From positions 1 through 21,803 of the IMG/VR virus record IMGVR_UViG_3300025543_000252: a DNA stretch of 21,803 bases. One strand, written 5' to 3'. A model generated the notes under the pieces. That model saw only the letters and a list, made by a program, of their open reading frames with translations, was not told the origin of the DNA and searched no databases. A program made the translations under genes and the position numbers. This stretch comes from a virus. Shown in pieces: positions 1 to 21,803 of the stretch (within the stretch, counting starts at the first letter, position 1; each line of letters begins with the position of its first letter).

Positions 1-130
1 CCCTTATTTTCCCGAGACCGTAAGTAGTAGGATGGGAAAACCAATACACCGTTGTACCTCTTGCTTCTGGATTAGATTCCGCTAACTCGACTACATCATA
101 ATAATCGTCAACCGTGAATTGATTCGCCAT
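1..130 (-). CDS. Small hypothetical protein, C-terminus cut by window edge
   Basis: An open frame starts with ATG at base 130 and runs off the left edge, giving about 43 residues (MANQFTVDDYYDVVELAES and onward). The start is chosen because it sits at the end of the 18-base stop-spacer-start junction that also precedes the next three genes upstream. The visible part is acidic and tyrosine-rich, like its neighbours, with no domain I recognise. It is the last visible member of the small-gene array and is probably co-transcribed with it. Function is unknown; existence is supported mainly by the conserved junction and the tight 11-base spacing. Confidence 0.65.
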   Translation of the reverse strand, partial: MANQFTVDDYYDVVELAESNPEARGTTVYWFSHPTTYGLGKIR

Positions 131-144
131 ATCTCTGTTGTTTA
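127..144 (-). repeat. Junction repeat copy 1 (stop-spacer-start)
   Basis: The minus strand reads TAAACAACAGAGATATGG. TAA is the stop of the gene at 142-378 and ATG is the start of the gene at 1-130, with the spacer ACAACAGAGAT between them. The same 18 bases recur exactly at 375-392, 554-571 and 796-813. Confidence 0.9.
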
Positions 145-378
145 GTAGTTATAAGGGTCAGAAATTTCATCTATCCGCGCGATAAATTGTGATTCTGACA
201 TAATCTCATCTAAATCCTGCCGCAATCTGTTTTCTGATTCTGCCCATACTGCACCATAAATTCTACGACCTGTTATCTCATCCGAAATCATAACCTCATA
301 AGCGTTTTGGTTGTAGAACGGTGAGTCCTGTACGCTTATGTCGTAGTCGTTAACAAAGTCTTTTACTGTGTATGCCAT
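142..378 (-). CDS. Small acidic hypothetical protein (78 aa)
   Basis: The product has 16 Asp/Glu against 6 Lys/Arg. The order looks like strands followed by a helix (YEVMISDEITGRRIYGAVWA, then ENRLRQDLDEIM), which suggests a small alpha/beta fold. I recognise no family. It starts with ATG at 378, directly after the conserved 18-base junction, and its stop is part of the next copy. It lies in a run of at least eight tiny acidic genes downstream of the prohead protease. A role in blocking host defences or in host take-over is possible by analogy with other phage small-gene clusters, but nothing in this protein shows it. Confidence 0.75.
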   Translation of the reverse strand: MAYTVKDFVNDYDISVQDSPFYNQNAYEVMISDEITGRRIYGAVWAESENRLRQDLDEIMSESQFIARIDEISDPYNY

Positions 379-392
379 ATCTCTGTTGTTTA
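375..392 (-). repeat. Junction repeat copy 2 (stop-spacer-start)
   Basis: Identical 18 bases TAAACAACAGAGATATGG on the minus strand, joining the stop of the gene at 390-557 to the start of the gene at 142-378. Confidence 0.9.
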
Positions 393-557
393 GTATTGAC
401 CCATTCCAATAGCACGTGCCTCATCTAATAGGAGAAGCATTTCGTTGTAATATCTTGACCCCATCGCAAAACCGCCTGAATTGTAATGTTCAGTTTCGAC
501 TAGTTCAATTGCCTCAGTAAGCAATTCTATAATCTCCTTGTTTTCTACACCTGCCAT
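390..557 (-). CDS. Small hypothetical protein (55 aa)
   Basis: This short frame begins with ATG at 557 and ends with TAA at 390-392. The product starts MAGVENKEIIELLTEAIEL and ends RAIGMGQY. It looks mostly helical and acidic, with two amphipathic helices separated by a Gly-rich turn (NSGGFAMGS). Its start and its stop both lie inside exact copies of the junction repeat, and it fills what would otherwise be the only gap in the array, so I regard it as a real gene despite its size. No family is recognised and the function is unknown. Confidence 0.72.
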   Translation of the reverse strand: MAGVENKEIIELLTEAIELVETEHYNSGGFAMGSRYYNEMLLLLDEARAIGMGQY

Positions 558-571
558 ATCTCTGTTGTTTA
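554..571 (-). repeat. Junction repeat copy 3 (stop-spacer-start)
   Basis: Identical 18 bases TAAACAACAGAGATATGG on the minus strand, joining the stop of the gene at 569-799 to the start of the 55-residue gene at 390-557. Confidence 0.9.
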
Positions 572-799
572 AGTAATGGTAATTTCAATTTCATCGATGT
601 ACTCATCTCGACTATCATACAGAACTCTGTAATTTATTTCATAGCCATAGTGTTCCATGTCTAGAATCCAATCCATAGTGCGTTCGTAGTCGTTATCGTT
701 AGGGCCAATGACTGACAACAGCGCACTTTGATTATAGTTGCCTAGCGTGACCTCAAGGGTGCGTACAAGGCTGTCCAAGTCATCAATAAATTCAACCAT
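569..799 (-). CDS. Small acidic hypothetical protein (76 aa)
   Basis: The product has about 18 Asp/Glu and 4 Arg. It begins MVEFIDDLDSLVRTLEVTL, probably a helix, and ends with an acidic strand-like stretch (DEYIDEIEITIT). It is rich in Tyr near the C-terminus. No known family is recognised. It starts with ATG at 799 immediately after junction repeat copy 4, and its stop codon is part of copy 3. Strong acidity combined with small size is compatible with a DNA-mimic or protein-binding inhibitor, but that is only inference. Confidence 0.75.
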   Translation of the reverse strand: MVEFIDDLDSLVRTLEVTLGNYNQSALLSVIGPNDNDYERTMDWILDMEHYGYEINYRVLYDSRDEYIDEIEITIT

Positions 800-813
800 A
801 TCTCTGTTGTTTA
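796..813 (-). repeat. Junction repeat copy 4 (stop-spacer-start)
   Basis: Identical 18 bases TAAACAACAGAGATATGG on the minus strand, joining the stop of the gene at 811-1056 to the start of the gene at 569-799. Confidence 0.9.
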
Positions 814-1056
814 TAGATAATTAATTTCTGCGTCAGGTTCCTCTTTTGCCAAGTCTTCGATAACCTCGATAAATGACTCTTCTTCGTCAAAATCCAAGTT
901 CATGGTGATTTCAACTAACCGACGATAGTCTCCCTCTTCAGCATCTACATAACCGTAGTCATCAATGTAAATATCTAAATCGCCTTCGCCTGAGTCACGC
1001 GAATCAAGGTAATCATGTACCTCATCAAACTCTAATCCTTTGATTTCAATAAGCAT
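811..1056 (-). CDS. Very acidic small protein (81 aa), possible DNA mimic
   Basis: Counting by eye gives 29 Asp/Glu and 5 Lys/Arg in 81 residues, so the net charge is near -24. Acidic residues are spread along the chain (for example GDLDIYIDDYGYVDAEEGD and LDFDEEESFIEVIEDL) rather than gathered in one disordered tail, and they alternate with Tyr, Ile and Leu as in a folded protein. Phage DNA mimics such as T7 Ocr and the ArdA family share that composition, but I see no sequence match to either. Its start follows a diverged form of the junction repeat, and its stop lies in copy 4. Confidence 0.75.
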   Translation of the reverse strand: MLIEIKGLEFDEVHDYLDSRDSGEGDLDIYIDDYGYVDAEEGDYRRLVEITMNLDFDEEESFIEVIEDLAKEEPDAEINYL

Positions 1057-1073
1057 ATTTCTCTTGTTTGTTA
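1053..1073 (-). repeat. Diverged copy of the junction repeat
   Basis: The minus strand reads TAACAAACAAGAGAAATATG (then C) between the stop of the gene at 1071-1307 and the start at 1056. It resembles TAAACAACAGAGATATGG but is stretched by three bases. I take it as a degenerate member of the same element. Confidence 0.55.
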
Positions 1074-2801: not shown

Positions 2802-4727
2802 TCACAAGGTAGTCTGCGCATTGATTCTTGCTTGCAGTAATTGCTGTCCTTCTAGCTGACTTTGAACCACATAGGCTTGTCCTGCATTTAAACTTGGTCC
2901 CCCCGTGAAGTTTTGGTTTGCATTGCCTTCAGGAATTAACGCTTGCTGCACAGTGCTTGGTGGTCGTGAACCAATGTCACCGGGTACGTTCACATCCGCA
3001 GTTGCCATTATGGATTTAATTTGCGCAAACCCTGCTGTCAACGCTCCAAACATACTAGCGATATAACCAGCCAAAGTAAATGGTGCTGCCGGGCCAGTTG
3101 CTGCTGCTGCCTCCGTTGCACCAGCCAAAGCGGAAGCAAATGCTCGTCCTTGATTAATAAGAATTTCCGTGATAGCAAACGCTCGTTGCGCTTCTTGGTT
3201 GTCTTCGCCAGCACGAATCAAATCGCCAACCGCCCGAAGCGAAGTGTCCACAAATTGCTTACGCGCCTTCAACCTTGCTTGCTCACCTTTTCTTGCTTCT
3301 TCCGTTAAAATCTCTTGATGCTTTGTTTCGGCTGCTTCAATGTCCGCGTTCATTTGCGCTTGCAGCTGTCGCTCTAATTCTTCGTTATCAGCGACTAAAG
3401 CAAAGCGTTCTTCGTAACCTTTAACGATGGCATCCTTTTCCTTTTCAAACCGCAAGTCCTCACCTTCAAGCTGGCTGTACTCCAAGAACTGTTCAATGCG
3501 GTCCGCGTTTTCAACCATGCTATTGTACTCAGCATCATCGCGCTCTTTCTTTCTTTGAGCTTCTAGCTCTTCTTGTTCAATCTGCGCACTTAGATACTCG
3601 TCGCGCATTTGAGCCAGCTCTATAAGACCTTGCTCTTCTCGCTGTCGAATTTGCTCCGGAGAAGCACCTTGCTCCTTCATTCGCTGTAACTCCAGTTGCA
3701 AGGACTGTTCAAACTGTTTCTCTCTTCGCTGTTGACCGTCAAGAAAAAGAAGTTCTTCCTTCATATTCAAGTCTTGAGTCAGCTTAATGCGGTACGCTAA
3801 CTCTTTCGCTCTGCGGTCCGCACGTCTTTGTTCTGCTTGTTCCGCTTCACGCTGTTGAGCTTGCAAGTCTAACTCGGCTTGGGTCTCTGCATTGAGTTTG
3901 TTTTGCCTTTCAATTAATTCGTTTAGCTGGTCCTGATAGCTTTGTGCTTCTTGCCCAGCTTCAGCCATATTCTCCGCTACGCTTTTGGTAGCCGCAGATA
4001 CACCACGCAAGCTAATCATCATGTAATCCCACCAGCCTAACTCGAACGTCTGCGACTCTTTGCGTTTTTCCGCTACCTGCTCAGCCAGCATTCGTTGCTG
4101 CACACGCAGCACCTCCAACTCGCCAGCGCGTTCCATCGCCATATTTAATCGCTCCAAGTCTTGTGCTTGGGTCAGGTCAAGTCCTGCAATCTCTCTACTG
4201 CTTTGCGCCAGCGTTGATTGCGCTGCCTCACGTTCATCTATGCTTTTTGTGGAGTCATTAACAATTTCTAAAAGCTGCTGTGTAGACACATTAAAAGCCG
4301 TTTGAGCTTGCGTTGCTTTTTCTGTTACTTCTGCCTGAAACTTCATAGCCTCTGTTGTGCCTGTGAAGAAGTCTGAAACTTTGTCCCAATTTTCAACTAT
4401 CCACGTGAGACCTTGTATCAATAGAGGTAATCCAAGTGCCGCAATCGATGTTTTCAGTAAGTTGAATGAAGTGCTGGCACGTCGCACAGCTCGCGATGTT
4501 CCTTGAAACGAACGAATCGTTCTCTGTAAACCACGAGGTAGGATGCTGCTGAAAATATCAAGTAGACCCTTCCAGTCTTTCTTCTTATTACGGTCTCTTG
4601 TTTTCTTTAGACTCTCGTCTAATTCCTGAGCTTTTGTTTTTGTCGTTTCAATTGCCTCATCGATTTCCGACAATCCTTCTACGACACCCTGAGCATCAAG
4701 TTCACCCGTGATTTTTATCGGCTCCAT
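2802..4727 (-). CDS. Tail tape measure protein (641 aa)
   Basis: It sets tail length and is ejected with the DNA. The protein opens with an amphipathic region rich in Glu and Lys (residues 1-50), has hydrophobic stretches near residues 88-112 (LLKTSIAALGLPLLIQGLTWI) and near 525-570 (Ala/Gly-rich), and in between a very long Gln/Glu/Arg coiled coil (roughly 290-480). It is the longest coiled-coil protein in the tail cluster and lies between tail structural genes and the head protease, as a tape measure would. At the usual 1.5 angstroms per residue it would suit a siphovirus tail of roughly 100 nm (inference). It starts at ATG 4727, overlapping the end of the small upstream gene by 26 bases. 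Confidence 0.82.
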   Translation of the reverse strand: MEPIKITGELDAQGVVEGLSEIDEAIETTKTKAQELDESLKKTRDRNKKKDWKGLLDIFSSILPRGLQRTIRSFQGTSRAVRRASTSFNLLKTSIAALGLPLLIQGLTWIVENWDKVSDFFTGTTEAMKFQAEVTEKATQAQTAFNVSTQQLLEIVNDSTKSIDEREAAQSTLAQSSREIAGLDLTQAQDLERLNMAMERAGELEVLRVQQRMLAEQVAEKRKESQTFELGWWDYMMISLRGVSAATKSVAENMAEAGQEAQSYQDQLNELIERQNKLNAETQAELDLQAQQREAEQAEQRRADRRAKELAYRIKLTQDLNMKEELLFLDGQQRREKQFEQSLQLELQRMKEQGASPEQIRQREEQGLIELAQMRDEYLSAQIEQEELEAQRKKERDDAEYNSMVENADRIEQFLEYSQLEGEDLRFEKEKDAIVKGYEERFALVADNEELERQLQAQMNADIEAAETKHQEILTEEARKGEQARLKARKQFVDTSLRAVGDLIRAGEDNQEAQRAFAITEILINQGRAFASALAGATEAAAATGPAAPFTLAGYIASMFGALTAGFAQIKSIMATADVNVPGDIGSRPPSTVQQALIPEGNANQNFTGGPSLNAGQAYVVQSQLEGQQLLQARINAQTTL

Positions 4728-12357: not shown

Positions 12358-13545
12358 TTATGTGTTAGGTATGTAAGCTTTTCCGTTGACCTTTATTTTT
12401 AGGTTGAGGTCCAAATTGTGCATACGGTTGATGACTACTTCACAATATTTTGGGTCTAACTCCATCGCATAACAGGAGCGTCCTAGCTGCTCACATGCCA
12501 CCATAGTCGTTCCGCTACCAACAAAAGGGTCCAACACAATCTCTCCTTTTTCAGTGCTGTTTTTAATAAGGTAAGCCATTAACTCCACGGGTTTCATTGT
12601 TGGGTGTTCCCGGCTTGACCTTGGCTTATCAAATTCAAGTACGGTGGTTTGCTTGCGGTCTGTGAACCAACGGTGCGACGCTCCTTCTTTCCATCCATAC
12701 AGACACGGTTCGTGCTTCCATTGGTAATCTTGCCTGCCCATAACCAGTGTGTTCTTAACCCATATCAAGCACTGACGTATTTGTATGTTGGCTGCTTTCA
12801 ATGCTAGTCGAAAGTTGATGCCTTCGGTGTCTGCGTGCCAAACGTAAAAGGCACTACCGGGTTTGATGCATTCCATCGCACGTGAAAAAGCATCGAGCAG
12901 GAAAAGATAGAAATCGTTATCGGCCATGTGGTCGTTTTCAATCTTCAGCTTTTGCTCCGTACCTCCTTCGTAGTTCACATTGTATGGTGGGTCTGTTACC
13001 ACCGCGTCACACATCTCTAGTGAGGTTAATTTGACGTAGTCATCGTACTTGGTTGCATCTCCGCAAAGCAATCTGTGACTTCCAATTTCAATTAAGTCCC
13101 CAACCTTTAGGAATGACTCAGACGGTAGCTCCACTTCAAAGTCATCGTCTGATGCTTCCGTTTCTAGTTCGTTTGCAAAGTCAATATCAACACCCCAATC
13201 TGTAAGGTCTTCTGCGTCGTAGAGGTTTGCAAGCATCTCCATATCCCACGCACCGAACCCAGCGTTGTCTTTAATGACAAACTCCTTCTGTTTTTCTTCG
13301 TCCCAATCAACAATTACAATTGGGACTTCTTTTAGTCCTGCTTCCTTACAGGCTCGGTACCGCATGTTACCACCAAGTATGACGTAGTCTGTGTTTACAA
13401 CGATTGGCCGCGTTGACAACATCTCCGGAAACTCCTGCACGCTTTTTACAAGGAGCGCAAACTTGTCATCTTTAATGAACCGAGGATTATTCGGGTTTTG
13501 TTTCAGTTGTTGAATCTTCACAACTTGCGAGGTAGGCTGCTTCAA
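12358..13545 (-). CDS. ParB-like domain fused to DNA methyltransferase (395 aa)
   Basis: It probably methylates phage DNA at adenine-N6 or cytosine-N4. Residues 8-100 form a ParB/Srx-like N-domain (KIQQLKQNPNNPR, then ILGGNMRYRACKEAG at 56-70). The C-domain is an N6_N4_Mtase: motif IV DPPYNVNY at 185-192, HPTMKP at 314-319 and the SAM-binding motif DPFVGSGTT at 339-347. Having motif IV ahead of motif I is the beta-class order. No cognate restriction enzyme is seen, so protection from host restriction or regulation is more likely than a full restriction system. The start ATG at 13545 overlaps the upstream gene by 59 bases; a GTG near codon 9 is an alternative. It sits just upstream of terS. 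Confidence 0.88.
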   Translation of the reverse strand: MKQPTSQVVKIQQLKQNPNNPRFIKDDKFALLVKSVQEFPEMLSTRPIVVNTDYVILGGNMRYRACKEAGLKEVPIVIVDWDEEKQKEFVIKDNAGFGAWDMEMLANLYDAEDLTDWGVDIDFANELETEASDDDFEVELPSESFLKVGDLIEIGSHRLLCGDATKYDDYVKLTSLEMCDAVVTDPPYNVNYEGGTEQKLKIENDHMADNDFYLFLLDAFSRAMECIKPGSAFYVWHADTEGINFRLALKAANIQIRQCLIWVKNTLVMGRQDYQWKHEPCLYGWKEGASHRWFTDRKQTTVLEFDKPRSSREHPTMKPVELMAYLIKNSTEKGEIVLDPFVGSGTTMVACEQLGRSCYAMELDPKYCEVVINRMHNLDLNLKIKVNGKAYIPNT

Positions 13546-13927: not shown

Positions 13928-14336
13928 GTGCTAGGGTATTAAGTGAATGGCTCTGATAGTAGTAAACTTCAAAAAGTTTTGCATCGAACCAATGTCGGTC
14001 TTTTAGTTTTTCTTGTATCCATTTCATTTCCACTTCATAAAGTTCTGGTGGTGCTTCAGCTACTGCTGTGTGAAATGACTGGAATTGAAAAGTGTTCTCT
14101 TTGTGTTTCTTGTATTTATAGTAATACGGTGAGTTTTTTGAAAAAGCACTGATAGACACCATGCGCAATATATAAAACAGAAGCTGTTCTTTCTCACACA
14201 AGACTTTGGCCTTTTCATTTGTCAAGGCCCACAAACAAATATCTTGAAACAAGTCATCACCGTCGGACACCTTCAATCTACACAGCGATTTTAGTTCGTT
14301 GTGTCTTTGTTGGATGAAGTGATGTACGCAGTTCAC
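13776..14336 (-). CDS. Sigma-70-like transcription regulator (186 aa)
   Basis: It may direct host RNA polymerase to late promoters. Residues 25-66 (GDDLFQDICLWALTNEKAKVLCEKE, then FYILRMVSISAFSKN) resemble region 2 of ECF-type sigma factors, including the DLFQDI start of the core-binding helix. Residues 118-160 (KLFEVYYYQSHSLNTLAHETGISRSTINKSICKTKAYLKKE) resemble the region 4 helix-turn-helix. The Gly/Arg/Ser tail after residue 162 is coded in the overlap with the next gene. The frame starts with GTG at 14336, joined to the NinG stop as GTGA. Position just before the packaging genes fits a late activator. Family match is by eye. Confidence 0.65.
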   Translation of the reverse strand: MNCVHHFIQQRHNELKSLCRLKVSDGDDLFQDICLWALTNEKAKVLCEKEQLLFYILRMVSISAFSKNSPYYYKYKKHKENTFQFQSFHTAVAEAPPELYEVEMKWIQEKLKDRHWFDAKLFEVYYYQSHSLNTLAHETGISRSTINKSICKTKAYLKKEAERTGGRRGVSGKSDRSGEVGGDSGG

Positions 14337-14749
14337 AAGTGCTTCGTCACTTTTAGATTGGTTAGTTTTATTTTATACTTCTCCACCATTTCCATCAACT
14401 CAGCTTGAGAATACTTTACAGGCAAGTTGCTAAGTCTTAATACTTCGTCTGCCGTTCCCTCTCCATACTTTGCATCAAGCACTTGACCGTGTACGTACTG
14501 TTGACCTCCGTTCATATTGCACTGCTTACATTGCAAGGATGCATTAACAAGCGGTGGTTGATGGAGCCAACGTGTGGACTTTTTAGCTCGTGTAATAAAG
14601 TGACCGCAGTCCGCTTCTTTGTAGAATTTTCTTGCGTTGCAGGTTACGCAGTTACCGTAGCCATTTTCATCGGTTTCAAAAAGCCGGACGTATTCGCTGT
14701 AAATACGGTCCAACTTCTCCACCAATTTCTGTCGTGGTGTTTTCGCCAT
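14333..14749 (-). CDS. ninG: NinG/Rap-like recombination protein (138 aa)
   Basis: NinG/Rap is a Holliday-junction-targeted endonuclease helper of phage recombination. The zinc and nuclease signature is complete: Cys34 and Cys37 (GNCVTCN), ADCGHFITR (46-54, with Cys48 and His50), STRW (58-61), and Cys74/Cys77 in NASLQCKQCN. I chose ATG at 14749 (MAKTPRQKLVEKLD), because family members begin there; the frame also has an upstream Met at 14767. It lies between the exonuclease and the sigma-like gene in the recombination/replication block. A 72-base space separates it from the exonuclease gene. Confidence 0.85.
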   Translation of the reverse strand: MAKTPRQKLVEKLDRIYSEYVRLFETDENGYGNCVTCNARKFYKEADCGHFITRAKKSTRWLHQPPLVNASLQCKQCNMNGGQQYVHGQVLDAKYGEGTADEVLRLSNLPVKYSQAELMEMVEKYKIKLTNLKVTKHL

Positions 14750-14821
14750 AAAGCTAAGATAGGCCACAATGACGTTTCAAAGTGACCTACCAACCGGAGG
14801 AAAAAGGCTCCAGCACTTAAC

Positions 14822-15544
14822 CTACCTTACCCAGCTCGGTATCCTAAGAGGTTGGATAAGGTTAGAGTAACTCATAGGCAATCCATCCCATGACTTAAAC
14901 TCTTCCACTAATTTATACAATTCTGCCTTCGCCCACAACATTGCCTCATCTGTTATTTTAAACACTCCTACGTTGTATGGACCACTTTTTTCAACCGTAC
15001 ACCATGTAAAAGTGTCCATTCCGCAAACCTCACAATAAATAGCCGCTTGTAAATAATAGTTCATATTGTACGCTGCTCGGTGAAAACCCTCGGAACTTGC
15101 ATCCTGCACTGTTTTCAAATCCCAGATGCCGTGTTCAGTTACTCGGTCCACGATACCTTTAAACTCGACACCTCTTATTTCTTTCTTCACCGGAACCTCG
15201 CTGTGTCCTTCCGTCATTATCAGACTAGCTTCCGGGTGTTCCATGATTTTAATGTGCATGGCCATAATTCTTGCCAGCTCCGTCTCGTCAATCACGATGC
15301 GTTGTTGTGCCTCTTTTTGATGTTTGGTAAACTGCGCCTTACCATTCTTGGTACGTCTGTCGACTTTTGGCATAACGTAGTACCTATCTTCAAAACTCTC
15401 TCTTTCCAACACGTACGCGTGAAACGCAGTGCCAAACTTCATCTCCGGTGTTTCCACCCGGTCACCCATTACGTACTGAATATAGTGCGATGGACTTTTT
15501 GCATAGGCTTTTAAAGCACTGTAGCTTAGATAATCTCTCTTCAT
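14822..15544 (-). CDS. PD-(D/E)XK exonuclease, RecE/DUF3799-like (240 aa)
   Basis: It likely digests double-strand DNA ends for recombination with a single-strand partner. It begins MKRDYLSYSALKAYAKSPSHY. Motifs in order: GTAFHAYVLE (38-47), Glu116 in HSEVPV, KGIVDRV (129-135, Asp133), WDLKT (141-145, the D-x-K core) and YYLQAAIY (163-170). This is the layout of phage PD-(D/E)XK nucleases of the lambda-exonuclease/RecE type. The chosen ATG at 15544 overlaps the upstream stop as ATGA; an in-frame Met at 15565 is less likely. No separate Beta/RecT annealing protein is recognised, although the OB-fold-like protein at 17327-17746 could partner it. Confidence 0.85.
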   Translation of the reverse strand: MKRDYLSYSALKAYAKSPSHYIQYVMGDRVETPEMKFGTAFHAYVLERESFEDRYYVMPKVDRRTKNGKAQFTKHQKEAQQRIVIDETELARIMAMHIKIMEHPEASLIMTEGHSEVPVKKEIRGVEFKGIVDRVTEHGIWDLKTVQDASSEGFHRAAYNMNYYLQAAIYCEVCGMDTFTWCTVEKSGPYNVGVFKITDEAMLWAKAELYKLVEEFKSWDGLPMSYSNLIQPLRIPSWVR

Positions 15545-16107
15545 TTGGTGTGGTTTCGGTCCCAAGCCTCACGGAGTCGTGTTCCGCTTCCTTTAGGTTT
15601 TGGTGGTGGTGAGTCTTTTACTAAATCCTTCAGTCCTAAAGGCTCCAGCTTTCTTGGTGATTTTTCAAAGTCTTCTGACTTCCTTTGTTTTATTCTTTGC
15701 TCCATCATTTCAGTGCGAACCTCTGACTCGTACCGACGTAAAACCTCTAATATCTCTGCGGTCTTTAAGCGTTCGAAAAGCTTACCAAACTTGCCTTGAC
15801 GTATCATGTTGAAGGCCAGCCTTATTTCTTGCAGGGTTATTGTCGGGTGTTCTTCAATTATGCTTTTGCAGCAAAACTTTATCTCGTCATCACTCTTAAG
15901 CGTTTTGTTATAGTCTTGGTCACGGCAAAGCGAACCAACCTCCGCGAGCAACCATCCCCGAACCATTGCTGGCATTTCCTTAATTGCGCTTTGGAGATTC
16001 ACTCCATTGTAAAATGCCTGTTCCGGTTTAATCGGGAAGTTACCCGTTTGCAATAAAGTCGTTAAGGCCGTCCTTGGAGAAGTTTTCTGGATTGAATCCT
16101 TTTTCAT
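15541..16107 (-). CDS. Candidate replication accessory protein (188 aa)
   Basis: I do not assign a family with certainty. The central part (DDEIKFCCKSIIEEHPTITLQEIRLAFNMIRQGKFGKLFERLKTAEILEVLRRYESEVR) matches a pattern I recall next to replication initiators in Bacteroidetes phages, where a helical protein with a 'GKxGKLFxRL' core is followed by a charged tail. The C-terminus is Lys/Pro-rich (KDSPPPKPKGSGTR). The start is chosen at ATG 16107 (MKKDSIQKTSP); an upstream Met at 16164 would overlap the previous gene by 125 bases. Even the chosen start overlaps it by 68 bases. Directly following an HTH initiator gene, it may load the host helicase or act as its partner. Confidence 0.6.
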   Translation of the reverse strand: MKKDSIQKTSPRTALTTLLQTGNFPIKPEQAFYNGVNLQSAIKEMPAMVRGWLLAEVGSLCRDQDYNKTLKSDDEIKFCCKSIIEEHPTITLQEIRLAFNMIRQGKFGKLFERLKTAEILEVLRRYESEVRTEMMEQRIKQRKSEDFEKSPRKLEPLGLKDLVKDSPPPKPKGSGTRLREAWDRNHTK

Positions 16108-19688: not shown

Positions 19689-20459
19689 TTAAACGTATCT
19701 GCCTGCTAGGGTATTATAGTTAGACGTTATCTCTGTTGAGCTTAAAGCCCTGTTATAGACTGCTATTACTGAATAGCTAACCGCAGGGTTTTCGGTAGTG
19801 GACCTATCAGGGTCTCCTGCAATACCAACCGGATTAGTAGGCATTGACTGAGTGCTTGAACGAGTGTCTGTCTGACTAGCGTTTTGATACATAGAAAAAG
19901 CACTACCATTTTTTACCACCGTGATGTTTATCCAAGAATTTCTAGGCCAATATTGAGTCATGTTACCGCCATTGTAATACTCAAAACCAGCAGGCGTAAC
20001 CTTCATAAACCGCAACGGGCTTGATTGTCCTCCATATCTATTACCAAAAAGCACATCGTAAAATCCCGCTCCACTACTAGGTATGTTTAACCACAAACTA
20101 ATTGTAAAGGAACTAGTGCTTGTCTGTGCCGGAAACACAAAGCTGCTACTAGTAGCTTTTTCGTTACTTCCGTCAAAGTTGATTATTCCACCTTTGTCAG
20201 AAGACCAATCACCACTTTCTGTGTTTACAAACGTGAAGTCGTTGTTGTTGCTTGTTAAATCGTACCATGTACTTCCTGCTGCTGCCGAGTTAAAACTGTT
20301 TGTGTTCCCTGCATCTAGGTGTAAAATCAATCCGTTCTGAATGATGTCTGCCGTAGCAGCACCATCGATGCCTGAAATCTTATCAATACCTGAAGTTGCA
20401 ACACCACTGAACTCATCAATAGCTGTATAGGCTTTACCTGATATTTTATCTATCGCCAT
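19689..20459 (-). CDS. LamG/concanavalin A-like tail adhesin (256 aa)
   Basis: Residues about 38-256 form a Laminin-G-like lectin domain: NGLILHLDAGNTNSFNSA, WYDLTSNNNDFTF, INFDGSN, FTISLWLNIPSSG, ITVVKNGSAFSMYQN, YSVIAVYNRALSSTEITSNYN and AGRYV. The last two are hallmarks of LamG in phage receptor-binding proteins. The N-terminus has a short repeat (IDKISG at 4-9, IDEFSG at 14-19, IDKISG at 25-30) that may attach it to the virion or form a trimeric stem. It follows the repeat-bearing fibre gene with a TAATG overlap, and both probably build the host-binding tip. Confidence 0.82.
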   Translation of the reverse strand: MAIDKISGKAYTAIDEFSGVATSGIDKISGIDGAATADIIQNGLILHLDAGNTNSFNSAAAGSTWYDLTSNNNDFTFVNTESGDWSSDKGGIINFDGSNEKATSSSFVFPAQTSTSSFTISLWLNIPSSGAGFYDVLFGNRYGGQSSPLRFMKVTPAGFEYYNGGNMTQYWPRNSWINITVVKNGSAFSMYQNASQTDTRSSTQSMPTNPVGIAGDPDRSTTENPAVSYSVIAVYNRALSSTEITSNYNTLAGRYV

Positions 20460-21803
20460 TACGTCAAGTCTATGTATTCAACAGACGGATTAAAATAAAT
20501 TACGCTTGTGCTGATTGCGTGTCCCATTACTCGTTGAAAGCCAGAAGTCGGTGCAGCGCTACTAACAGATGCATTCGTTGAACCGAAAACAGTTTCACCT
20601 GCCGTCAGGTTGGTTGCTCCGTTGGGATTGACAAACCCATGCAAGACAAAACCCTTAGCCATTGATGTTCCTATTGCTACACCTAACAAGGCTTTTTGTG
20701 GTGCTTCGGATGCAGTCGTGTAGAACACCCATGTAGCACCTGAGTAATAGTACACCCTTCCTGCAATCGTAGAGCTTGCGGACGAACCTAGAAACGTAAT
20801 GTTTGCACCATCTCCATAAGCACCCGCAACGGTAAGTCCTGCTTCGTCCTGTTCAATTCCTGCTTCTGCTCGAAAAGTACCAAGAGACTTTACAGGCATT
20901 CCTGAATCGCCTAATGCTAATTCATTGTTTCCCGCTAGTAAATAAACATCCGAGTTGCCGATGTCCTTTATTTCGAGGTCACCGCTGTTGACGTCAAAGA
21001 TTAACGAGTTGCCATCGTTATCATAAGTGCGGTCACCATTTGCTGTTAGGTTCGAATTACCTAGGTTGGTGTCCGTTCCACCGCTTCCGTTTGCTGCCGC
21101 AGTAATCCTGCCTTGAGCATCAACAGTTATATTCGCTGCTGTGTAGCTACCTGCTGTTACTGCTGTATTGTCTAAGCTGACTACAACGTTTCCCGTAGTT
21201 GGATTTGCCGTTAATCCAACTCCACCTGTCACATCGTCAACAGGAACACTTGGGATTGTTGGCTTGTTCAAAATAACGGCTAAACCGCTAGTTGCGTTCC
21301 AATCCGATTGTACGTTGTATTTATTTGTCCCTTCCGCTATATCGTCCGTATCCAATACAACCGCGCCCACTTGAGTATTCACGGAATCTACCGCGTTCAC
21401 TTCAGCACCTGCTGCAATACCTGCGAGTTTCGTTGCATCAGCTGACGGGTAGGAGTTCTTAGCGTTGTTGGTTATTATATCAGATGCTTGCTGCGCAGTG
21501 ATTCCTACCTTGGCATTGTTTGCGCTTATGTCTGCGGCTTGTTGGGTAGTGATACCCACCTTAGCGTTGTTTGCTGTAATGTCTGATGCTTGCTGAGCAG
21601 TGATTCCTACTTTGGCGTTGTTCGCTGTGATGTCATCGGCTTGAGTTTGAGTGATACCAACCTTAGCGTTGTTCGCTGTTATGTCTGCCGCTTGTTGAGT
21701 CGTGATTCCGACCTTCGCATTGTTTGCGGTTATGTCTGCCGCTTGTTGAGTCGTGATTCCAACCTTTGCCGTATTTGCTACGACAGCCGAATTTGCTGCA
21801 ACT
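20459..21803 (-). CDS. Tail fibre with tandem-repeat stalk, 5' end cut by window edge
   Basis: The frame is open to the right edge, so the N-terminus is missing. It carries six consecutive 17-residue repeats (KVGITTQQAADITANNA and close variants), then a linker (YPSADATKLAGIAAGAEVNAVDSVNTQ), a beta-rich region typical of trimeric fibres (GDLEIKDIGNSDVYLLAGNNELALG) and a C-terminal domain ending YFNPSVEYIDLT. An apparent start at 21559 is only an internal Val codon (GTG) in the fifth repeat, so I extend the gene to the edge. It probably mediates host binding together with the LamG protein downstream. Confidence 0.85.
   Translation of the reverse strand, partial: VAANSAVVANTAKVGITTQQAADITANNAKVGITTQQAADITANNAKVGITQTQADDITANNAKVGITAQQASDITANNAKVGITTQQAADISANNAKVGITAQQASDIITNNAKNSYPSADATKLAGIAAGAEVNAVDSVNTQVGAVVLDTDDIAEGTNKYNVQSDWNATSGLAVILNKPTIPSVPVDDVTGGVGLTANPTTGNVVVSLDNTAVTAGSYTAANITVDAQGRITAAANGSGGTDTNLGNSNLTANGDRTYDNDGNSLIFDVNSGDLEIKDIGNSDVYLLAGNNELALGDSGMPVKSLGTFRAEAGIEQDEAGLTVAGAYGDGANITFLGSSASSTIAGRVYYYSGATWVFYTTASEAPQKALLGVAIGTSMAKGFVLHGFVNPNGATNLTAGETVFGSTNASVSSAAPTSGFQRVMGHAISTSVIYFNPSVEYIDLT
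21461..21766 (-). repeat. Six 51-base tandem repeats in the fibre gene
   Basis: Each unit codes for 17 residues of the type KVGITTQQAADITANNA: 21766-21716, 21715-21665, 21664-21614, 21613-21563, 21562-21512 and 21511-21461. Units vary at 'TTQQAAD', 'QTQADD' and 'AQQASD'. The sixth ends DIITNNA. Codon use differs between units, so the protein repeat is more conserved than the DNA. Confidence 0.92.

Follow-up and report, generated by a model that had tools for sequence, protein, structure and literature searches.

The window, a 21.8-kb stretch (21,803 nucleotides) of an IMG/VR virus record, begins with a run of small minus-strand genes that are joined by one repeated sequence. An earlier note on this DNA had claimed four exact copies of it, and all four are there: the 18-mer TAAACAACAGAGATATGG lies on the minus strand, matching exactly each time, at 127-144 (stop of gene F027, start of F161), 375-392 (F160 stop, F027 start), 554-571 (F159 stop, F160 start) and 796-813 (F014 stop, F159 start). 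This is far above chance: in 100 shuffles searched with up to three mismatches allowed, a mean of 0.03 copies was expected and no shuffle contained four. The rest of the window holds no further copy of the motif. Every copy consists of the TAA of one ORF, the 11-nt spacer ACAACAGAGAT and the ATG of the following ORF, and we refer to this shared stop-spacer-start of 17 bases, TAA-ACAACAGAGAT-ATG, as the seam. The stretched copy that the note had placed at 1053-1073 also exists, but it lies at 1054-1073 (minus strand) and is degenerate, with a 14-nt spacer before the ATG of F014 (TAA-CAAACAAGAGAAAT-ATG). It bounds the seamed part on its upstream side.

The genes behind these junctions, here called cassettes, are all on the minus strand. 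They are F161 (2-130, 43 aa visible before it runs off the record, behind the first seam), F027 (142-378, 78 aa, 85% identical in DNA to a copy in contig L062), F160 (390-557, 55 aa, for which a search for relatives found none), F159 (569-799, 76 aa) and F014 (811-1056, 81 aa, with a predicted ferredoxin-like fold). Upstream lie three more small minus-strand genes with no seam in front, F090 (1071-1307, 78 aa), F089 (1312-1554, 80 aa) and F048 (1563-1823, 86 aa, a DUF3846 protein), which exemplify the absence of the seam from some small-gene junctions in the arrays. Gene duplication was rejected as the source of the repeat. The proteins between the copies are unrelated, as the note had held, with no detectable mutual similarity in profile comparisons; the intervening genes are not recent duplicates of one another, and a family is present twice in only one contig.

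The array is flanked by backbone genes on the same strand. An XkdF-like head maturation protease (1858-2805; PF14550 and PHROG matches) adjoins it and is itself preceded by a putative tape measure protein (2802-4727), named from its position, its length and the conserved gene order. Two candidate recombination helpers lie further along the minus strand, a NinG/Rap junction endonuclease (14333-14767; PF05766, phrog_5034) and an exonuclease VIII-like PD-(D/E)XK nuclease (14822-15565; PF12684, phrog_412). The window also encodes an N6/N4 DNA methylase fused to a ParB N-terminal domain, a phage orphan methyltransferase (12358-13545), and a tail-fibre-like ORF (20459-21802) in which a unit of about 17 residues (TTQQAADITANNAKVGI) is repeated in tandem.

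Phages that carry the seam and their cassette proteins

The seam TAA-ACAACAGAGAT-ATG was found in about 45 viral contigs, with up to 11 copies per contig. Exact scans of viral sequence gave the 18-mer in 37 stretches and the 17-mer in 66, and about 48 loci hold at least two seam copies (maximum 11), always on one strand. Among about 85,000 cellular genomes (257 Gb) the 17-mer occurred in 34 stretches, 33 of them with a single copy, which by our estimate is chance level. Only L089 among the cellular stretches has an array, and it is a contig of phage origin assigned to a bacterial MAG (JAFMIA010000163.1, labelled Pseudomonadales); this array contig closely resembles L011 and L040. The initial loci were chosen by the motif, and searches based on capsid proteins and on cassettes agree with them. 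An assembly artefact was judged unlikely, as the k-mers commonly used in assembly exceed the seam in length and different assemblies give identical array orders (L011/L040/L089, L006/L020 and L023/L036).

The note had proposed looking for the motif in related phages, and close relatives do carry it; more distant relatives (L200, L210, L215 and L217) have no array. The seams stand between small genes at one site, between the tape measure and head genes. The conserved backbone order is terminase, neck and tail genes, tape measure, array, XkdF-like protease, scaffold-like and capsid genes and a portal-like gene, with backbone genes that have no family match named from position. The window and a few relatives differ in having the protease before the array. 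Judging from the contigs, the genome size appears to be about 29 kb, and the carriers are uncultured small-genome phages, probably of Flavobacteria-like bacteria. The nearest isolates, the Nonlabens phages P12024L and P12024S, are distant (34% identity in the protease and 24% in the capsid protein), and a search for F014 among isolates gave no match. One 34-kb contig, G008, contains two diverged head-gene blocks about 28.9 kb apart (L105, 49-5032; L106, 11723-16848), and is either a permuted genome or a chimera of two strains.

Clustering gave about 85 protein families behind the window's seam, which we call the A seam, mostly of 44-110 aa. Profile comparisons between cassette families, 2,519 in all, gave a probability above 85% for just five pairs. 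All 167 distinct A-dialect cassette proteins are acidic, with a mean of -0.15 charge per residue against -0.03 for the backbone; these 167 proteins are also nearly free of cysteine, despite belonging to unrelated families. Differences between cassette ORFs fall at codon position 3 in 909 of 1,561 cases (58%), which indicates that the ORFs are under purifying selection. Almost none of the cassette proteins has known relatives: a search with 84 cassette families returned one Pfam match (DUF3846), a few PHROG matches of unknown function and no match to a defence system. The structural model of F014 is confident and ferredoxin-like, its structural matches being at the level of a common fold and without functional meaning, and that of F027 is poor (pLDDT 58.7). 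No N-terminal motif common to the cassette proteins was found. Our guess, made by analogy with the internal proteins of T4 (PMC12373910), is that the cassettes may encode accessory proteins of host takeover or counter-defence.

Cassette exchange and seam dialects

Cassettes are shuffled between seams, as the earlier note had suggested as one possibility, with the same gene families recurring in different orders across contigs. The 15 copies of F014 lie next to 10 different genes on the left and 11 on the right, and the five copies of F038 next to five on each side, while most backbone genes have one to three neighbours. The window's sister contig (L018/L280) has a terminase 99% identical and a tape measure 91% identical to those of the window, yet its array is largely different and reordered. 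Both F159, whose DNA is 91% identical in the two contigs, and F089 stand at other array positions there, F159 with other neighbours.

The edges of the exchanged segments coincide with the seam. When cassettes of the same family with different neighbours were aligned (37 families), DNA identity was 22-32% upstream, 87-100% over the TAA..ATG and about 70% inside the gene, and this step was mirrored on the cassette's other side in 32 families. Among unique HSPs of at least 88% identity within arrays, 94% of starts and 88% of ends lay at a seam, against 9-10% at random. Single cassettes of 96-98% DNA identity occur in phages whose capsid proteins are only 44-66% identical. L024 and L041 share a cassette that is 98.5% identical in DNA and have capsids 49% identical, L014 and L039 share one of 98.4% with terminases 60% identical, and L030 and L040 are another divergent pair with a near-identical cassette. 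Between L038 and L009 one junction differs by exactly one 243-bp cassette plus seam, with the flanks shared. All evidence for exchange is comparative, and by such comparison cassettes swap at the seam between otherwise divergent phages. A few larger genes, namely F015 (about 270 aa) and the 230-243-aa genes of L155, L164, L171 and L172, also travel through the array with a seam or a variant of it in front, so a cassette need not be a tiny gene.

A search by capsid protein, not by motif, found relatives whose arrays use a different seam throughout, the B seam TAA-ACCACAACGAT-ATG. Among contig pairs limited to capsid identities of 35-70%, a cassette of at least 80% DNA identity was shared by 18 of 158 A-A pairs, 12 of 44 B-B pairs and none of 240 A-B pairs, counts that are correlational and not controlled for host. 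The locus pairs are not mutually independent, so the test value serves only as a guide. The difference between the A-A and A-B counts points to a dependence of exchange on boundary identity. Protein homologues behind the A seam exist for 20 of the 43 B cassettes, with a closest DNA identity no higher than 73%, whereas 39 of 103 alignable A-A cassette pairs reach at least 90%; a homologue of the window's F027 sits behind the B seam in L179. L023 (the same as L194) has the A seam although its capsid is nearest those of B phages (53-69%), and its cassettes are shared with A phages only. The host could underlie the dialect and would likewise restrict exchange.

A third clade has three seams in each array, by zone: TAA-AACAACTTAAAG-ATG, GGAAATTAAA-ATG and TAA-TAAAAAGAAT-ATG. 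These arrays lie upstream of the capsid gene in L146, L150, L151, L155, L159, L171, L172 and L273. Shared DNA in this clade starts at a seam in 67% of cases and ends at one in 43%, against 6% at random, and the three zones may exchange independently.

Probable roles of the seam in translation and recombination

The seam spacer carries 1.4-1.9 bits per base, against 0.03-0.32 bits in the leaders of backbone genes of the same phages, and TAA is the stop in all 143 unique junctions with the 11-nt gap. Pairing with 16S rRNA was rejected as a role of the seam, there being no complementarity beyond chance. In a comparison with three 16S loci, one of them without shuffles, the longest complements were 6-8 nt, no better than those of shuffled spacers; with what we take to be the sequence of the 16S 3' tail, the A seam can pair over no more than 3 nt. 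Shine-Dalgarno-independent initiation in Flavobacterium johnsoniae is favoured by A at positions -3, -6, -12 and -13 (PMC6847099). The seam has A at -6, -12 and -13, G at -3 and no Shine-Dalgarno core, and its A at -12 and -13 is there because the TAA stop lies at a fixed spacing. The seam probably doubles as a non-Shine-Dalgarno translation start. The translation signal that the note had suggested fits the fixed spacing, the constant TAA and the A positions, and it is compatible with a recombination seam.

In some phages the seam comes shortly after a promoter-like sequence, TATATTTG, which is of Bacteroidota type and so consistent with a Bacteroidota host. At L006 9812, L007 11615 and L010 10065 (in reverse complement or on the plus strand) it stands just before the seam of the first cassette, ending a few bases short of it, so that the seam is nearly the entire 5' leader there.

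We consider it likely that the repeat is the seam of an array of single-gene cassettes, exchanged between phages by short homology at the seam. Each cassette is one small ORF and each junction TAA-ACAACAGAGAT-ATG. The comparisons show cassettes gained, lost and swapped singly or a few at once between otherwise divergent phages, with breakpoints within the seam, and closely similar cassettes are common only to phages with the same seam sequence. The recombination seam, one of the roles that the note had considered, is well supported by the shuffling, the breakpoints at the seam, the clean single-cassette insertion and the dialect-limited exchange. On coinfection of one cell by two such phages, the 17 identical bases could supply the short homology, host RecA or an unrecognised annealing protein could carry out strand exchange or annealing, and the phage NinG/Rap nuclease may resolve the junctions. 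Since everything from the stop of one gene through the leader to the start of the next is part of the seam, an incoming cassette would be translated at once, the stop codon providing the A's at -13 and -12 favoured by Flavobacterium-type ribosomes. With one seam at all junctions any cassette would fit any position, and the dialect would therefore stay uniform.

The recombination functions of these phages bear on this scheme. NinG/Rap was found in 19 of 23 records as well as in the window, and an ExoVIII-like nuclease in two of the 23; searches of the 23 records for ERF- and RecT-family annealing proteins found none. In lambda, deletion of rap lowers RecA-dependent recombination about 500-fold (PMC3945230). 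A length of 17 bp is short for RecA-type recombination. It is quite possible, though we put this forward tentatively, that the seam dialect serves as a mark of compatibility and determines which phages draw on a common gene pool, whatever the ancestry of their backbones, and that the array is an integrase-free, self-maintaining counterpart of an integron.

The seam might instead be an element for strong initiation of translation, or for coupling of stop and restart, and nothing else; selection would keep it identical, and gene order would change through ordinary illegitimate recombination and selection for intact genes. The exact position before starts, the fixed spacing, the constant TAA and the A at -6, -12 and -13 are what such an element would show (PMC6847099), but we think it unlikely, as the backbone genes of the same phages have no such leader (0.03-0.32 bits per base), homologous cassette families function behind quite different seams, and translation predicts neither dialect-bound sharing nor the clean insertion of a cassette with its seam. 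The note had also raised a binding site, and a phage-encoded RNA- or DNA-binding regulator of all the small genes, with a specificity of its own in each lineage, would fit the dialects and a motif that is uniform within a genome and different in related phages, like the inverted repeats of cluster K (PMC3203893). We regard this as very improbable: it explains less than exchange at the seam, no candidate regulator was found, one clade has three seams within one array, and regulation by itself accounts for neither the breakpoints at seams nor the sharing across divergent backbones.

A site-specific recombinase or integron-like system that moves cassettes at the seam would agree with single-gene cassettes in one orientation and with the precise insertion of a cassette plus one seam. 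It has, in our judgement, hardly any chance of being correct. None of the 23 records, some of which are fragments, contains a tyrosine or serine recombinase, and the PF00589 tyrosine integrase was found in none of these partly fragmentary records against 14 of 14 control genomes; the seam has no obvious dyad, and several unrelated seam sequences fill the same role. The recombination seam, one of the roles that the note had considered, is well supported by the shuffling, the breakpoints at the seam, the clean single-cassette insertion and the dialect-limited exchange.

Comparison with known systems

Integron arrays are tandem single-gene cassettes in one orientation with one shared junction sequence, and are shared horizontally as units. 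The phage arrays have the same tandem layout of single-gene cassettes with a shared junction, but no integrase was found in the 23 records, several unrelated seams are in use and the arrays lie in phage genomes. Lambdoid boundary sequences and the PeSL of T4-type phages are short conserved intergenic sequences that supply homology for exchanging small accessory genes. Lambdoid boundaries vary from junction to junction and PeSL are promoter stem-loops, whereas here one stop-leader-start 17-mer stands at every junction and lineage dialects limit exchange. As in module exchange at short boundaries, conserved sequence lies at the edges of the exchanged segments (94% and 88% at seams, with the step in identity). 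Exchange works like homology-driven swapping at short boundary sequences, and the result is in outline an integrase-less integron array.

The mosaics of temperate phages arise by relaxed homologous recombination promoted by Rap, with homology traces flanking about 30% (PMC3945230). Swapping of genes in the arrays would likewise be driven by homology, but a dedicated 17-bp seam lies at about 90% of boundaries. The ip genes of T-even phages are small, variable accessory genes, several to a phage, that come in many versions among relatives and for which counter-defence has been demonstrated (PMC12373910). The arrays too hold several small variable accessory genes; the part of that source which was covered describes no seam array, and the T4 proteins have a capsid-targeting signal (PMC12373910).

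The start-associated sequence (SAS) of cluster K phages, to which the note had likened the repeat, is a 13-bp Shine-Dalgarno-like consensus, GGGATAGGAGCCC, 3-7 bp before starts, scattered over the non-structural half of the genome mostly in gaps of more than 50 bp, with lineage-specific inverted repeats beside it (PMC3203893). The analogy holds in part, but the seam is not an SAS. Like SAS and ESAS, it is a short asymmetric repeat that stands in many copies, almost always in the same orientation, before genes that belong to different families, but consensus, Shine-Dalgarno core and layout differ. No consensus with such a core stands 3-7 bp before these starts; the seam spans stop to start exactly, lies directly before the ATG and is confined to a single array among the structural genes, and the sequences on either side of it are exchanged.

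To our knowledge, a complete stop-leader-start seam at every junction, and dialects that partition a shared pool, are new in the open-access literature. How single accessory genes pass between phages is as a rule deduced from mosaics with blurred edges. The seams mark such edges explicitly, many times per genome and in dialects, so that the need for homology and the reach of a gene pool become directly measurable. The seam groups more than 80 unknown families of small acidic proteins into one coherent set under active exchange, where one would naturally look for anti-defence or host-takeover proteins of Bacteroidota phages, and provides a simple key for finding such genes in metagenomes. If the proposed role of the dialect is true, single genes would become interchangeable, immediately expressed cassettes, and only genes with a matching seam could enter.
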